From NCBI GenBank assembly GCA_030039695.1, contig JASHVB010000571.1, positions 1-5,376 on the forward strand: a DNA stretch of 5,376 nt, read 5' to 3'. Below the pieces are notes generated by a model. That model was not told where the DNA came from. It was given only the letters and a program-made list of their open reading frames with translations, and did not search any database. Made by a program: the position numbers and the translations under genes. Source of the stretch: Acetobacteraceae bacterium (GTDB lineage Bacteria; Pseudomonadota; Alphaproteobacteria; Acetobacterales; Acetobacteraceae). Below are positions 67 to 5,376 of this stretch, one piece after another. Positions within the stretch are counted from its first letter, which is position 1. Every line of letters begins with the position of its first letter.

Positions 67-612
67 TCAGGGCGCCAGCAGCAACGTGCGTGCCTGCTTC
101 ATGGCCAGGTCCGCAGCACCGCGAAGAGCGTGGTCGCCGGCGCTGCTTATGGGATGCGGAATGACGGCGAATTCGTATCCCGGGAAGCCGAGGACGCGTG
201 ACATGAGCTCGGCGGCCGTGACGAAGCGCGTCGTCATTATTGCCATTGCGGGAATGCCCAGACGCTCGGCAGTGATGGAGTCATGCAGACTGCACGACGA
301 GCAGGAGCCTCAGTCGCCGATACCGGTCACGACGGCCTGCCAACGACGGAGCTCATCGACGATGTCGGGGTCAGCGGGCGCGCTGTAGTTTGACTTGGTG
401 CGGCGTACCACGTCGGCGACGCCGAACTGGTCGCGCAGCATGCGGTCGAGATAGTTGAAGAATCCGGCGGTGCCTTCCTTGCCGTTGGAGATGATACCGA
501 CGGTCTTGCCCGCCAGCGACGCGAGGCGCGGCGCACGCTGGCCGAGCGGTGGGACGGTTTCGTTTGTGGGATCGAGGACCTTGAGGGACATCGGGATCGC
601 CATACCGCTCAT
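67..612 (-). CDS. UGSC-family selenoprotein, full length with in-frame UGA (Sec101)
   Basis: Reading through the TGA at 310-312 gives 181 residues ending at a TGA at 67-69. The N-terminal half has a beta-strand/Gly pattern (LAGKTVGIISNGKEG, residues 33-47) like a nucleotide-binding or racemase-type fold. The centre reads VTGIGD-U101-GSC-SSC-SLHDSI, so U101, C104 and C107 form a redox-type cluster. The C-terminal half (LGIPAMAI, then YEFAVIPHPISS at about 145-156) matches what I recall of the UGSC domain family, which occurs with either Sec or Cys at this site; its reaction is unknown to me. The start is ATG 612; Met4 (603), beginning MAIPM, is a plausible alternative, and neither has a strong Shine-Dalgarno. 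The gene lies 52 bp after its upstream partner on the same strand, probably one transcript. Family and Sec reading are strongly supported; biochemical function is not known. The alternative is a nonsense-mutated Cys form. Confidence 0.88.
280..298 (-). promoter_or_regulatory. Candidate bacterial SECIS hairpin
   Basis: In the mRNA sense, 11 nt after the UGA, arm GUCGUGCA (298-291) pairs with UGCAUGAC (287-280) around loop GUC (290-288). This gives eight pairs including one G-U. The loop begins 19 nt after the UGA with G first and U second, which fits the bacterial SECIS rules as I recall them (loop about 16-37 nt from UGA, G in the first two loop positions, G/U contacted by SelB). The core UGCAGUCUGCA closely resembles the upper stem-loop of the E. 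coli fdhF SECIS. The hairpin lies within coding sequence, as bacterial SECIS elements do. Pairing was found by hand, not folded by software. Confidence 0.8.
310..312 (-). other. In-frame TGA read as selenocysteine (residue 101)
   Basis: The triplet is TGA on the minus strand, preceded by codons for Gly-Ile-Gly-Asp and followed by GGC TCC TGC (Gly-Ser-Cys). The stop therefore falls exactly at the U position of the UGSC motif. The downstream frame stays open for 80 codons with GC-rich third positions like the upstream part, which a random nonsense codon would not explain. A one-base change from Cys TGC/TGT to TGA is the alternative, but the hairpin just downstream favours recoding. Confidence 0.88.
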
Positions 613-654: not shown

Positions 655-671
655 AGGCTGACGGTCAGCCT
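655..671 (-). other. Perfect inverted repeat at the stop codon of the 355-aa gene
   Basis: AGGCTGA (655-661) and TCAGCCT (665-671) are perfect 7-bp inverted arms around a 3-nt loop. On the minus-strand transcript the first arm contains the TGA stop of the upstream gene. No T-run follows, so it is not a standard intrinsic terminator. It could be an intercistronic processing or stability hairpin ahead of the selenoprotein gene, or chance. Confidence 0.5.
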
Positions 672-1732
672 GCTCCGGCCGCGGCATCGGGTTCGCAGTC
701 CACGCATGCCCCGATGGGCAGCGTCACCGCGCGACTCTTGTGTCCCAGCCAGGGCGGAATGACCGCGCCGAAGCCTCCCGCCGGACCGCCGGCCGCCACC
801 ACCAGCAGTGCATCCGGCGAAGGCAACGCCGCATATTCGGTGTCGCCGCGGTCGCGCACAACAGCGCCCTTCCCTACTTCCGCCCACTCGCGCCGATAGA
901 TCCGCGCGCGCGCGTGGATGAATTCCGCGATGTCGCTCTTGCTCCACCCAGCCGCGATGAGGTGCTCGCGCAACTGCTTCGGAATCACCAACGCGTAGCT
1001 GCCACTCCAGATTGAGTAGTGTCGCATGTTGGCGCGCATCTCGGCGGCGAAGGTCTCGAGTATCTCTGCCGGCTCCGTCGTCCATTCGTTCATGATCTGC
1101 CGCGGCGCTCCGGCGGCCATGACAGTGACCGCTGAAACCCCAGCTGGCAGTCCGCGCTGCACATGCAATGGCTGCCAGCTGCTGTCTTCCTCGTCCTCGG
1201 CGATGCAGTAGCTGAACTTGCCAGGATGGCCAAGGGTGGAACGGTCGATCCCGCCGGGTCGCACCTCGAGGATGTTGATCAGGGCCAGGCGGATGGCGCG
1301 GCCAATCGAAGCCGTCGCGCGGTCACTATTGCCTAGCGCATTGAACCCGCCGCCGGCGCCGATCTCGCGACGGATCGGGCCGTTCAGCACCACGAGCACC
1401 GCGCAACCACCAGTGGAGGCGGTGGCGCCGTGCAGCAGGAAGTCAGGCTGCAGCATCGCCGCAACCGCTGTGACGACGGCCGGGAAATGCATCGGCAGGC
1501 AACCCGCCATCACGGCATTGACCGCGAGCTTCTCCGCGGTGATCGGCACCGCACGTACCGGTTCGACGCCGATCAGCATGTCAGGCGGTGTCATCGCCCA
1601 GTCGAGGCAGGCGGCAACGGCATGGGCGGTAGGAGGCACGATCGGCAGTCCGTCGGTCCAGCCGTTGGCATGGTACAGCTCCTGCGCGGCCTGGATGTCG
1701 GCAACGTCGTAGGTCTTGGAGCTCAGGTTCAT
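665..1732 (-). CDS. Uncharacterised 355-aa protein, probable partner of the UGSC selenoprotein
   Basis: This 355-residue protein has no signal peptide or clear membrane segment, so it is probably cytoplasmic. Visible blocks are HANGWTDGLPIVPPT (21-35), AVNAVMAGCLPMHFPAVVTAVAAML (70-94), HGATASTGGCAVLVVLNGPIRREIGAGGGFNALG (101-134), a C-terminal helical part rich in basic and aromatic residues (about 250-285), and LLVVAAGGPAGGFGAVIPPWLG (309-330). Cysteines at 78, 110, 176, 343 and 346 include a late C-V-D-C pair. I recognise the GWTDGLPIVPPT type of N-terminus from conserved hypothetical proteins near UGSC genes, but I cannot assign a named family or reaction. Its stop (TGA, 665-667) lies 52 bp before the selenoprotein start, suggesting one operon. 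The start at ATG 1732 has only a weak GGA upstream, but the N-terminus looks complete. Reality as a gene is secure; function is open. Confidence 0.85.
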   Translation of the reverse strand: MNLSSKTYDVADIQAAQELYHANGWTDGLPIVPPTAHAVAACLDWAMTPPDMLIGVEPVRAVPITAEKLAVNAVMAGCLPMHFPAVVTAVAAMLQPDFLLHGATASTGGCAVLVVLNGPIRREIGAGGGFNALGNSDRATASIGRAIRLALINILEVRPGGIDRSTLGHPGKFSYCIAEDEEDSSWQPLHVQRGLPAGVSAVTVMAAGAPRQIMNEWTTEPAEILETFAAEMRANMRHYSIWSGSYALVIPKQLREHLIAAGWSKSDIAEFIHARARIYRREWAEVGKGAVVRDRGDTEYAALPSPDALLVVAAGGPAGGFGAVIPPWLGHKSRAVTLPIGACVDCEPDAAAGAG

Positions 1733-2062: not shown

Positions 2063-3289
2063 ATGGACCTGATCATCCGCAACGCCCGCCTCGCCAGCAC
2101 CCCAGAAGTCCCGCCCGTCGATATCGGCGTGCAATCCGGCCGCATCATCGCGCTCGAGCCGAACCTGGTCGCGAACGGGCCGGAATACGACGCGGACGGC
2201 AATCTCGTCTGCGCTGGCTTCGTCGAGACGCACATCCACCTTGACAAATCATGCATCATCGACCGGTGCCCACCAGAAACCGACCGCCAGGCCAACGCGG
2301 TTGCGCGTGTTGCCGCGGTGAAGCACACATTCACCGTCGAGGACGTCTATGACCGCGCCCGCCGCACGCTGGAGAAATGCCTCAAGCACGGCGCGACGCG
2401 CATGCGTACGCATCTGGAACTCGACGCCGGCGTGGAGCTGCGCAGCTTCGAGGCGATCGAGGCGCTGCGCAGCGACTATGCCGCGGCGATCGACCTGGAG
2501 ATCTGCGTCTTTCCGCAGGAGGGACTGACCAACAATCCGCGCGCCGACGAACTGCTGGTGGCGGCGCTGAAACGTGGCGCGAAGGTCATCGGCGCCGCGC
2601 CGAACTACGACCCGGACCACGCGGGTCAGATCAATCGTATCTTCGACCTGGCGCGCGAATTCGGCGTCGACATCGACATGCACCTCGACTCCGGCAACTC
2701 ACCTCAGGCTATGGACATCCACCTGGTCTGCGAGCTGACCGAGAAATACGGCCTTGGCGGACATGTCGCGGTCGGCCATGGCTGCAAGTATTCAACAATG
2801 CCGCCCGACGATCTGAAAGCGCTGGCCCGCCGCATTGCGTCCGCCGGTGTCGCCGTCACCGTACTTCCCGCCACTGACCTATTCATGATGGGCCGTGACC
2901 AGGTGCACAGCGTGCGCCGCGGCGTCGCCGACGTGAACCTACTGGCGGAGCTTGGCGTCAATTGCTCCATCTCAACCAACAACGTGCTCAACCCATTCAC
3001 GCCATTGGGCGATTGCTCGCTGCTGCGCATGGCCAATCTGCAGGCGAATGTCTGCCAGATCAGTCACGCGCACCGACTGCGTGAGTGCTTCGCCATGCTG
3101 ACGGAACGCGCGGCAAAGTTGATGAACCTGAGCGATTACGGGATCCGTGTCGGGAATCCGGCCGACATTGTCGTGGTCGACGCGACGACGCCGGAACAGG
3201 CGGTGGCAGAAATCACCCCGCCGCTTGCGGTCTTCAAACGCGGTAAGCGTACAGTGACACGGTCCCGCGCTGAGCTGCACCGGCCCTGA
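2063..3289 (+). CDS. Cytosine-deaminase-like amidohydrolase
   Basis: The 408-residue protein belongs to the metal-dependent amidohydrolase superfamily, in the CodA-like branch, which hydrolyses C-N bonds in cyclic or linear amides and amidines. The N-terminal beta-sandwich strand MDLIIRNARL leads to the metal motif ETHIHLDKS (H57, H59). Further metal candidates are H207 (DIDMHLDS) and H239 (AVGHGCKYS). The C-terminal signature is STNNVLNPFTPLGDCSLLRMANL (304-326), and NPADIVVVDA (365-374) returns to the small domain. Length and layout match the roughly 400-430-residue family norm. By hand alignment with E. coli CodA, the positions of the catalytic Glu217 and Asp313 are occupied by S210 and N306, so cytosine is probably not the substrate. 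It is the first gene of the plus-strand group, with GGAG 6 nt upstream of the start. Family is secure; substrate is unknown. Confidence 0.9.
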   Translation: MDLIIRNARLASTPEVPPVDIGVQSGRIIALEPNLVANGPEYDADGNLVCAGFVETHIHLDKSCIIDRCPPETDRQANAVARVAAVKHTFTVEDVYDRARRTLEKCLKHGATRMRTHLELDAGVELRSFEAIEALRSDYAAAIDLEICVFPQEGLTNNPRADELLVAALKRGAKVIGAAPNYDPDHAGQINRIFDLAREFGVDIDMHLDSGNSPQAMDIHLVCELTEKYGLGGHVAVGHGCKYSTMPPDDLKALARRIASAGVAVTVLPATDLFMMGRDQVHSVRRGVADVNLLAELGVNCSISTNNVLNPFTPLGDCSLLRMANLQANVCQISHAHRLRECFAMLTERAAKLMNLSDYGIRVGNPADIVVVDATTPEQAVAEITPPLAVFKRGKRTVTRSRAELHRP

Positions 3290-3761: not shown

Positions 3762-4583
3762 ATGACGGTCAGTGGACAGTTCAACGCCAGCGATGGCGTC
3801 CGCCTCGCCTATTACGAGGACGATTTTACCGATCCATGGGAGAAGCCGGCCACGTTGCTACTGCTGCATGCGGCGATGGGGCACGCGAAGCGCTGGTATG
3901 CCGCGGTGCCTGCGCTCGCCCGCCACTATCATGTACTGCGGCTCGACCTGCGCGGACACGGCCAGTCGCAGGTGCCGCCCGCAGATTCGCTCCTGACGAT
4001 GGAACGGCTGGTGCAGGACGTACGCGAGCTTTTGGGGACGCTCGGCACCGGTCCGGTGCATATTGTCGGCAATTCCGCCGGCGGCTATGTCGCGCAGAAT
4101 CTGGCGATGCAATCGCCGGGGCTGGTGCGCAGCCTGGTGTTGTTCGGCTCCACGCCCGGGCTGAGGAAGTCGCAGGCGCATACCTGGCTGCCACGCGTCG
4201 CGAAGGAAGGGCTGCGGAACTTCCTCGCCGCAACCATCGAGGACCGCTTTCCACCCGATCACGATCCCGGACACGTGGAGTGGTTCCTGGACGAAGCCGG
4301 CAAGAACGACACCGCGTGGATCGGCCGCTTCGTCGGCCTGATGACCACACTTTGGTGGATGGACGAGCTGCAGGGCATCGCGTGCCCGACCCTGCTCGTC
4401 GTGCCCGGCGCGGAAACCGTCGGCCACGCGGGGAATTATGAAACCATGCGCGAACGCATGCGCGATGCCGAGCTGATCAGCTACCCGGGTTTGCCGCACA
4501 ACATCTGCGACATCGTGCCGGAACGCTGCGCCGCCGATGTACTGGCATTCCTGCGCCGTCGTTTTCCGGAGGGTCACGTATGA
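3762..4583 (+). CDS. Alpha/beta-fold hydrolase
   Basis: The 273-residue protein has the normal length of a single-domain alpha/beta hydrolase and no signal peptide, so it is presumably cytoplasmic. Strand 3 and the oxyanion-hole region read ATLLLLHAAMGHAKRW (30-45). Next come RLDLRGHGQS (60-69), the nucleophile elbow G-N-S105-A-G-G (103-108), the strand LVRSLVLFGSTPG (121-133), a helical cap (about 140-200, with FVGLMTTLWWMDEL), and the late strand PTLLVVPGAE (209-218). The catalytic His is probably H246 in GLPHNICD. The acid after the late strand would be E218, where Asp is usual. This group cleaves esters, lactones, C-C bonds or haloalkanes; an enol-lactone hydrolase or esterase role is possible, but the substrate cannot be fixed. 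Its last codon overlaps the DUF4387 start as ATGA, so translation is coupled. Confidence 0.92.
   Translation: MTVSGQFNASDGVRLAYYEDDFTDPWEKPATLLLLHAAMGHAKRWYAAVPALARHYHVLRLDLRGHGQSQVPPADSLLTMERLVQDVRELLGTLGTGPVHIVGNSAGGYVAQNLAMQSPGLVRSLVLFGSTPGLRKSQAHTWLPRVAKEGLRNFLAATIEDRFPPDHDPGHVEWFLDEAGKNDTAWIGRFVGLMTTLWWMDELQGIACPTLLVVPGAETVGHAGNYETMRERMRDAELISYPGLPHNICDIVPERCAADVLAFLRRRFPEGHV
4568..4573 (+). promoter_or_regulatory. Strong ribosome binding site of the DUF4387 gene
   Basis: GGAGGG lies 6 nt before ATG 4580, inside the end of the alpha/beta hydrolase gene. It confirms the 4-bp overlap and adds its own initiation to any coupling. Confidence 0.75.
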
Positions 4584-4882
4584 AGCTATCCGATATTGCT
4601 CAGGTAGTCCGCAGCAAGAATGCCGGCCCGCGCCGGCTGACGCTGGATCTGATGTTCGCAACCGATGACGAGTATGGGCGCGTCGCGCAGTCGCCAGCAA
4701 TCAATCGCGAGACGATCGCCGCGCTGTACCTTGTCCCGGCGGATGACGTGACAGTGATCCCGTATCCGGTCGGCCGCGCCATCAAGATCGTGCTGGCGCG
4801 CGCGATCATGGCGGGTGATCCGGGCGATGTCGACGTATATGGCGCGCAACAGCACGCGCCGCTGCTGGGGTTGGAAATATGA
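4580..4882 (+). CDS. DUF4387 family protein
   Basis: This 100-residue protein matches the DUF4387 family in length and in its hallmark blocks: MKLSDIAQVVRSKNAGP (1-17) followed by LTLDLMF (20-26), ALYLVPADDV (48-57), and the C-terminal GDPGDVDVYGAQQHAPLL (79-96). Family members are encoded next to, or fused to, AtuA-like DUF1446 proteins, as here, and are thought to act with them; the biochemical role is not established to my knowledge. There is no signal peptide or membrane segment. It overlaps the hydrolase before it and the AtuA-like gene after it by 4 bp each (ATGA), which suggests the three products are made in fixed proportion, perhaps as a complex. Confidence 0.93.
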   Translation: MKLSDIAQVVRSKNAGPRRLTLDLMFATDDEYGRVAQSPAINRETIAALYLVPADDVTVIPYPVGRAIKIVLARAIMAGDPGDVDVYGAQQHAPLLGLEI

Positions 4883-5376
4883 GCGCCGCCGCTCGCGTCC
4901 TCGACACGCTGCACAGAAGCCGCCGGCCCATGCGCTTGGTCGGTGCATCCGGCCAGCTTGGCTATGGCGTGCCAACGCCGGCATTCGACGCGGCGCTGGC
5001 ACGTGCGCCCGACCTCATCGGCGCCGACATGGGCTCAATCGATATCGGCCCGACCTATCTCGGCAAAGGCGAGATGGCGACTGCGCCAGCAGCGACACGC
5101 CGCGATCTTCGCAAGCTGCTGCATGGCGCGCGTAAGCTCGACGTGCCGCTGGTGATCGGCTCGGCCGGATCGGCCGGCGCGGCGCCGCATCTCGATGCGA
5201 CACTCGGTATCGTGCGCGAAATCGCGCGGGCCGACGGGCTTCGCTTCCGCCTTGGCGTACTGCGCGCGGATCTGCCGCGCGAGATGCTGCGCGCGGCGGT
5301 CCGTGCGGGAAAGGTCATCGGCATCGACGGGATGCCGGAGCTAACCGAAGAGGAAGTCACCGAAGCCGCACATATC
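4879..5376 (+). CDS. AtuA-like (DUF1446) protein, N-terminal part, cut by window edge
   Basis: The frame is open from ATG 4879 to the window end: 166 residues with no stop, while family members usually run to about 400-600. Recognisable blocks are MRLVGASGQLGYGVP (18-32), the segment LIGADMGSIDIGPTYLGKGE (46-65), PLVIGSAGSAGAAPHLDATLGIVREIA (90-116) and a PELTEEEV motif (153-160). These match the acyclic terpene utilisation AtuA/DUF1446 family, named from citronellol/geraniol catabolism in Pseudomonas, although many members sit in other catabolic loci and the reaction is not settled. The ATGA overlap with the DUF4387 gene supports the 4879 start; Met18 (4930) is an alternative. Only weak purine-rich sequence precedes the start, consistent with coupling. 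I withhold the symbol atuA because a terpene role cannot be shown. Confidence 0.9.
   Translation, partial: MSAAARVLDTLHRSRRPMRLVGASGQLGYGVPTPAFDAALARAPDLIGADMGSIDIGPTYLGKGEMATAPAATRRDLRKLLHGARKLDVPLVIGSAGSAGAAPHLDATLGIVREIARADGLRFRLGVLRADLPREMLRAAVRAGKVIGIDGMPELTEEEVTEAAHI

Follow-up and report, generated by a model that had tools for sequence, protein, structure and literature searches.

A UGSC-family selenoprotein gene with an in-frame UGA and its near-constant partner gene in an Acetobacteraceae contig

The window analyzed here, a stretch of 5,376 nucleotides (nt) from an Acetobacteraceae bacterium (positions 1 to 5,376 of contig JASHVB010000571.1, assembly GCA_030039695.1), carries on its minus strand a UGSC-family selenoprotein gene that is read through an in-frame UGA (67..612) and, upstream of it, a partner gene that we call P (665..1732). 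The UGSC frame runs from 612 to 67 and comprises 181 codons if its TGA is read as selenocysteine (Sec), followed by a terminal TGA; standard gene calling yields only a 100-amino-acid (aa) open reading frame (ORF) at 310..612 on this strand. The read-through product, MSGMAIPMSLKVLDPT...VVTGIGD-U-GSCSSCSLHDSI...VIPHPISS...LLLAP-stop, has Sec at residue 101 (codon 310..312), a Cys at residue 104 (301..303), which is the resolving-thiol candidate of the UxxC motif, and a third Cys at residue 107 (292..294) that extends the motif to UxxCxxC; 80 codons follow the UGA. An initial sequence-only reading of this DNA had described a frame that stops at a TGA after VTGIGD and resumes for 80 codons up to a second stop, which we can confirm, adding that the strand, not given at the time, is the minus strand. 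Its figure of 181 residues is correct for the frame as read; the native product, however, is probably 174 aa long with U94/C97/C100, since relatives begin at window residue 8, where a probable conserved start ATG is located (591-589). Residue numbers given here refer throughout to the 181-residue frame, not to the probable 174-aa form.

Bacterial and archaeal genomes were scanned for relatives; of the 187 obtained, the best 80 were kept as loci for comparison, and all 80 combine TGA at the Sec codon with the sequence UGSCSSCSLHD. They align with the window across the Sec codon, on both sides, at 61-88% identity. Their aligned stretches contain no TAA or TAG, and from the conserved start to the end of the alignment the UGA is the only stop; the sole two extra TGAs (codons -103 and -95) are positioned 5' of that start. 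Third codon positions account for 54% of the differences from the window before the UGA and for 53% after it. Since the 80 loci align across the UGA, keep the TGA and are devoid of TAA and TAG, the downstream frame is not a matter of chance, and a sequencing error at the TGA could be ruled out by its presence in all 80 other contigs. Among 241 alphaproteobacterial genomes, exactly one in-frame TGA was counted in 64 of 65 UGSC places (positions of these TGAs were not individually checked). In the relatives' genomes, as many as 8 UGSC genes were counted in a single genome, and two of 88 UGSC matches are without TGA, one being a region that has lost the motif (L126, see below), the other a 32-residue fragment.

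The read-through product matches the Pfam family PF24696 with 158.3 bits (cut-off 25; residues 12-178 of 182), compared with only 56.6 bits for the truncated product, so that the profile search put forward as a check in the sequence-only reading came out in favor of the longer protein. With the NCBIfam model NF041046, 121.6 bits were obtained (E 2.5e-35, profile positions 2-145 of 147, C written for U), which is just below the cut-off of 125; this model would therefore not name the window protein even when it is read through. The profile matches support the assignment of the window protein to the UGSC-family selenoproteins, with which it shares the full-length match and the D-[U/C]-G-S-C motif with Sec or Cys first, whereas the window clade is set apart by the third Cys (UGSCSSC) and by its score under the NF041046 cut-off. 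D100-U101-G-S-C104 is invariant across 34 sequences of the wider family, as are Lys45 (478..480) and His153 (154..156); departures from the motif were encountered in fused forms (GC-U-GSC and GG-U-GTC) and in locus L125 (U-G-A-C). Residue 107 is Cys in 81/81 window-type sequences but in only 27/34 family-wide, being W, N, S, A or G in the others. On this alignment evidence, conservation of C107 is clade-specific, and the earlier suggestion of an extra resolving thiol at this position may apply to the window clade but does not extend to the family as a whole.

In protein databases, 65 of 108 UGSC relatives stop exactly at the residue preceding the UGA (66 by a looser rule) and 15 span the UGA position. 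Ten of these 15 carry Cys there, two Arg, one Trp and one Gly, and one has a deletion; 22 entries classed as 'other' and 5 C-terminal ones are included in the 108 but belong to neither count. Together with the Pfam match and the Cys-containing plasmid copies described below, the 10 Cys proteins agree with the view, already held in the sequence-only reading, of UGSC as a family with Sec or Cys in the first motif position. For a fused form, 119 of the 120 relatives listed (best 120 of 2147) begin downstream of the UGA. Six entries (P0004, P0005, P0008, P0010, P0029, P0077) have an otherwise intact motif in which Sec is replaced by Arg, Trp, Gly or Ser. A single base change in TGA can give a codon for each of these amino acids, and such copies may represent sequencing errors, true Sec loss, or a database bias towards full-length-looking copies. 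For Geodermatophilaceae, UGSC-motif selenoproteins with TAG as Sec codon and a tRNA-Sec with anticodon CUA have been described (PMC5330540), and TGA-only searches may therefore miss some UGSC genes. A search of Protein Data Bank (PDB) sequences with UGSC alone, run to an E value of 1, was negative; the UGSC profile gave three weak matches (best E 0.0073, ATP synthase gamma), none of which was accepted as a relative.

A bacterial selenocysteine insertion sequence (SECIS) hairpin is located at 280..298 on the minus strand, 18 nt after the UGA, with a 7-bp stem (298-292 pairing with 286-280) and the apical loop AGUCU (291-287). RNAfold adds an A-U pair in the loop, resulting in 8 bp and a 3-nt loop with G in first position, 19 nt from the UGA. 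For bacterial SECIS (bSECIS) elements, a loop of 3-9 nt, a stem of 4-16 bp, a G at loop position 1 or 2, a distance of 16-37 nt from the UGA and a minimum free energy of -7.5 or lower have been specified (PMC13188914). The hairpin agrees with this model on all four criteria (5-nt loop, 7-bp stem, G second, 18 nt), and its folding energy amounts to -12.7 kcal/mol for 39 nt and -10.5 for 40 nt. Positions 19-24 and 26-29 past the UGA are invariant in 81 sequences (71 distinct), with the outermost pair, 15-33, forming in just 26 of the 81. Codons +5 to +11 show 0.30 times the expected synonymous variation, versus 0.79 elsewhere, making this the lowest stretch of the gene; codons +6 (TGC) and +7 (AGT) are the sole columns with zero synonymous variation, AGT representing 6.2% of the Ser codons elsewhere in these UGSC genes. 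In 19 sequences that include distant paralogues, the six hairpin pairs are 97.4% paired, versus 4-47% when the pairing is slid, and two pairs carry changes on both sides; pairing, covariation score and the number of double-changed cells were each matched by 0 of 500 shuffles. This set combines 16 of 24 sequences folded with RNAfold and 3 from the 81-sequence alignment; it leaves out the near-copies L085, L095 and L127 as well as the UGSC-P fusions L111-L115, whose stem is in another register; fusions L112-L115 have a different, GC-rich hairpin at roughly the same distance from the UGA. Three Rfam matches were recorded in the window up to an E value of 5, all far under the gathering scores, and the one overlapping the SECIS region (RF01750, 20.9 bits versus 39) was not considered credible.

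Genes for selenium insertion were sought in the genomes of 26 of the 80 loci, tRNA-Sec being counted only at 68 bits or more. SelA exceeded the cut-off in 23 of them, SelB in 23, SelD in 26 and tRNA-Sec in 25; the corresponding numbers for 14 known control genomes were 1, 2, 2 and 5, with UGSC in none. All four are present in the genome of a syntenic relative (L001) that matches 4656 of the 5376 window bases in four blocks of 86.9-88.6% identity. In the 241 alphaproteobacterial genomes, UGSC occurs in 24, all of which have SelA, versus 14 of the 217 others (38 SelA genomes in total; Fisher 1.3e-23, kinship uncorrected). In two of the relatives' genomes, SelD may itself be a selenoprotein, because the selD matches (G008:C19 85688-86614 and G011:C46 47029-47955) contain one in-frame TGA.

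Were the UGA an ordinary stop, the 100-residue protein would be made and the frame beyond would be a relic. Standard calls do end at the UGA, as do the 65 database relatives mentioned above. Yet the TGA and the frame beyond it are kept in 80/80 loci with a coding-type substitution pattern, the hairpin is conserved, Cys occupies the position in other lineages, and SelA accompanies UGSC in 24/24 genomes. We rejected a stop followed by a relic on the evidence of frame conservation, hairpin and substitutions, and regard its residual probability as close to nil. Comparative sequence evidence thus identifies the UGA at 312-310 as a selenocysteine codon. The central claim of the sequence-only reading, a TGA recoded to give a 181-residue protein with U101/C104/C107, is thereby supported by the TGA in 80/80 loci, the family match and the SECIS hairpin; similarity downstream of the TGA and the sel genes, both of which had been named there as points to be checked, were found in the relatives as well.

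The second gene of the locus, P, encodes 355 aa and is without a match in Pfam or NCBIfam, and 18 diverse members of its family are likewise without NCBIfam match; 6885 database relatives were recorded among 7998 candidates scored. A PDB sequence search yielded one weak match for P (E 0.86) and one for its profile (E 0.33), neither of which was accepted. P and UGSC point in the same direction, with P upstream of UGSC in 79/80 loci, the contig of the 80th beginning within UGSC so that the upstream side is absent. The aligned parts of the two genes are separated by 1 to 793 nt, with a median of 27.5 nt (79 loci and the window). Among the 241 alphaproteobacterial genomes, the 24 that have P are precisely the 24 that have UGSC, and in 61 of the 65 UGSC places P is found on the same strand at a distance of 400 nt or less. 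At most 8 P candidates were scored per genome, which makes the P counts minimum values for genomes rich in P. Of the four UGSC places that lack an adjoining P, three belong to genomes that reach or approach 8 candidates (G182, G189, G091) and one belongs to G080. In 20 further loci (L111-L130), UGSC with adjoining P was seen in 19, in the orders P-U, U-P and U-P-P (U standing for UGSC), and in six loci (L100, L111-L115) the two form a single frame. In the 20th further locus (L126 4732-6324, minus strand, Acidisphaera sp. S103), a UGSC remnant that lacks both the TGA and the motif shares a single open frame with P, a fusion that possibly represents P with a dead UGSC domain.

Conservation within P centers, among other positions, on D27, G28, L29, N72 and M75-A76-G77-C78, together with G144-R145, E179 and W186 (also 23/23 in a larger set), all invariant in 18 P sequences. 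Cys78 (1499..1501, minus strand), the last residue of the motif N-x-V-M-A-G-C, is likewise present in 23/23. The 18-sequence alignment excludes L128, which ran over a stop; Cys78 in the 23-row set is unaffected. On plasmids, P adjoins 8 of 8 UGSC genes (309-397 bits), four in haloarchaea, two in Actinomycetota, and one each in Roseovarius and Acidovorax, with Cys at the Sec position in seven and TGA in the Acidovorax copy. As 7/8 plasmid copies with P have Cys, the UGSC-P module is, judged from these genes, independent of Sec; the conserved adjacency and fusion across these loci identify UGSC and P as one module in Bacteria and Archaea. The Acidovorax copy is located on plasmid p2-T1 of Acidovorax sp. 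T1 (L164; typed conjugative, IncP), for which PLSDB, the gene table of which is incomplete, annotates UGSC (3947-4237) as a short hypothetical protein and gives no gene for the P region (4544-5488).

UGSC selenoproteins as such are not new, nor is a fusion of UGSC to a second domain, and the window gene adds a member to a published family. A UGSC/Unknown_1 fusion was reported in 2008 in the Global Ocean Sampling (GOS) selenoproteome, and UGSC ranked among the commonest selenoprotein families of aquatic metagenomes, with 255 Sec genes in the GOS table (PMC2398784). The published fusion resembles the one seen here in that a UGSC domain is joined to a conserved second domain, in our case P. Unknown_1 was, however, said to be limited to some aquatic organisms, whereas P adjoins UGSC in organisms ranging from Acetobacteraceae and Reyranella to haloarchaea, a comparison made by description only. 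Our literature search, which was based on the term UGSC and main-text passages and included no search on P's own terms, brought up no description of P as a constant neighbor or of trx-linked U-P-P modules. According to a 2026 review, selenoproteins of the UGSC group are largely uncharacterized.

A structure model of UGSC (predicted local distance difference test 91.3) suggests an alternating alpha/beta domain of the Rossmann/flavodoxin-like type, in which Sec occupies the N-terminal end of the helix that follows the third main strand and Lys45 and His153 come after strands of the same sheet, Lys45 strand 1 and His153 the last strand. This bears on the idea of UGSC as a general thiol/peroxide oxidoreductase, an antioxidant selenoprotein resembling thioredoxin or peroxiredoxin, for which P would be only a scaffold or client. 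UGSC shares the UxxC redox motif with the thioredoxin-fold selenoproteins (thioredoxin-, peroxiredoxin- and glutaredoxin-like), and genes for thioredoxin or its reductase (trx/trxR) stand next to some modules. The predicted Rossmann/flavodoxin-like fold with Sec at a helix N-terminus, on the other hand, lends no support to the published inference of a thioredoxin fold, and two fold searches with the UGSC model, in which Rossmann/flavodoxin-type folds dominate, gave no thioredoxin among the 50 matches listed in each (a family outside the list is still possible). Moreover, the presence of as many as 8 UGSC genes in one genome, often near solute receptors, looks substrate-specific. We consider such an antioxidant role conceivable, though rather unlikely. 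With the model of a natural UGSC-P fusion, the fold-search matches listed were taken up by the UGSC half.

Redox genes adjoin the module in several lineages. The gene order is trxB-trxA-P-UGSC on a plasmid of Arthrobacter sp. ERGS1:01 and P-UGSC-trxB on one of Roseovarius sp. THAF8; no trx gene is listed at the other six plasmid UGSC loci, of which the unannotated Embleya locus is also without trx in a sequence search. A thioredoxin reductase (TrxR)-like gene adjoins the module in 7 of the 20 further loci (L112-L116, L119, L127), CxxCDG being present in all six that were translated, and one database ORF fuses a partial thioredoxin to UGSC. The seven modules with a TrxR-like gene also have a second P copy, visible as two P matches in L112-L115 and as one stretch of about double length in L116, L119 and L127; a four-part enzyme is a possible interpretation. 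As to metabolic context, the remaining neighbors are genes of catabolism and uptake. A cluster of ORFs, termed TctC-type after the Pfam match of one member, comprises 106 ORFs in 49/81 loci, or 1.25 per 10 kb near UGSC, against a background of 0.16 per 10 kb (95 matches in the 5.8-Mb genome G014, where 100 candidates were scored and 95 may be a lower bound). Neighbors at the plasmid UGSC loci include CoA-transferases as well as PEP-mutase-type and phosphosulfolactate-synthase-type genes. In the window itself, genes on the plus strand, divergent from UGSC-P, encode by profile match a cytosine-deaminase-like amidohydrolase (2063-3289), an alpha/beta hydrolase (3762-4583) and a DUF4387 protein (4580-4882), followed by an open frame without Pfam match (4879-5376) that we take to resemble AtuA-type proteins.

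Combining these data, we interpret the window as encoding a two-gene selenoenzyme module in which P and UGSC would act as the two subunits of a thioredoxin-fed selenol reductase, serving substrate-specific catabolism rather than general antioxidant defence, an interpretation to which we assign an even chance of being correct. P would hold a small organic substrate, and the selenolate of Sec101 would attack an electrophilic group on it, a step in which P-Cys78 as well as Lys45 and His153 of UGSC may take part. The product would be released in reduced form and a selenenyl-sulphide would form between Sec101 and Cys104 (Cys107 in the window clade), to be reset by NAD(P)H via thioredoxin reductase and thioredoxin. 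The resetting proteins would be operon-encoded in some lineages and presumably housekeeping ones in others, the window lineage included. A substrate-specific role is suggested by the occurrence of as many as 8 UGSC genes in one genome, often in the vicinity of solute receptors of the TctC type.

Several observations weigh against this interpretation. For the hairpin, stability is at shuffle level in a 71-nt frame (z 0.07) and mild for 39 nt (z -1.65, with 13 of 200 shuffles equally good); the number of pairs with double changes (2) was matched in 235 of 500 shuffles and that of further pair types (4) in 73 of 500, and the best RNAfold structure differs from the hairpin in L100, L090 and L111. 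SelA or SelB is absent or below the cut-off in 4 of the 26 relatives' genomes, all of them metagenome-assembled (G002, G009, G015, G025), and the Fisher values overstate independence because the genomes compared are related. The flanking sequences retrieved for the 81 window-type loci, many of them short, showed no trx gene, and the TctC background stems from one genome, with no TctC in the window. The fusion model yields no readable distance between Sec and residues of P, and no biochemistry of the UGSC family was found in the literature searched, as far as excerpts go.

UGSC could alternatively be a distant relative of GrdB (glycine reductase) and PrdB (D-proline reductase) and would then form a third branch next to these two enzymes; its reaction would be the reductive cleavage of a C-X bond, and P would take the role of the pyruvoyl subunit. 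U101-G-S-C104-S-S-C107 resembles the UxxCxxC motif of GrdB (PMC13188914), with Sec in a U-x-x-C context common to both groups, and the NADPH-TrxR-Trx logic of glycine reductase (PMC3091704) is reminiscent of the trx genes in some UGSC-P modules. In a profile comparison, Sec aligned with Sec, and a helix and a GIP strand came next, at a score of 23.8 versus 12.5 for a reversed control and 16.1 for a partner control. The match is weak, however, with a probability of 10% and 2.7% in two comparisons; CxxC-type motifs can align by chance, and a comparison of UGSC with PF07355, run to an E value of 10, was negative. GrdB and PrdB of C. sticklandii also differ in size, with 436 and 242 aa versus 181 (PMC3091704), and UGSC is combined with P where GrdB/PrdB have a pyruvoyl proprotein. 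We regard kinship with GrdB/PrdB as a lead of rather low probability. Separate PF07355 proteins scored over the cut-off in 18 of the 26 relatives' genomes. In L131, L132 and L134, PrdB-like proteins of the same genomes have an in-frame TGA in the motif LLVPV-U-P-x-C-TRAVGAL and are likely further selenoproteins.

Returning to the thioredoxin-fed P-UGSC reductase, a broader and more tentative proposal, which we consider possible but would not bet on, is that UGSC and P constitute an unrecognized class of two-subunit, thioredoxin-fed reductases beside glycine and D-proline reductase, using Se or Cys for the cleavage or reduction of small organic compounds in soil and water bacteria and haloarchaea. 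The class would have been duplicated into substrate-specific U-P and U-P-P forms, some with TrxR-like flavoproteins of their own, and would largely escape notice in databases, since gene callers truncate UGSC at the UGA. The splitting of UGSC genes at the UGA by standard software, evident from the 65 of 108 relatives that end there, is an annotation problem in its own right. For the biology of the family, a near-constant partner with a conserved Cys, combined with trx genes in some operons, provides a concrete two-protein handle on UGSC function.
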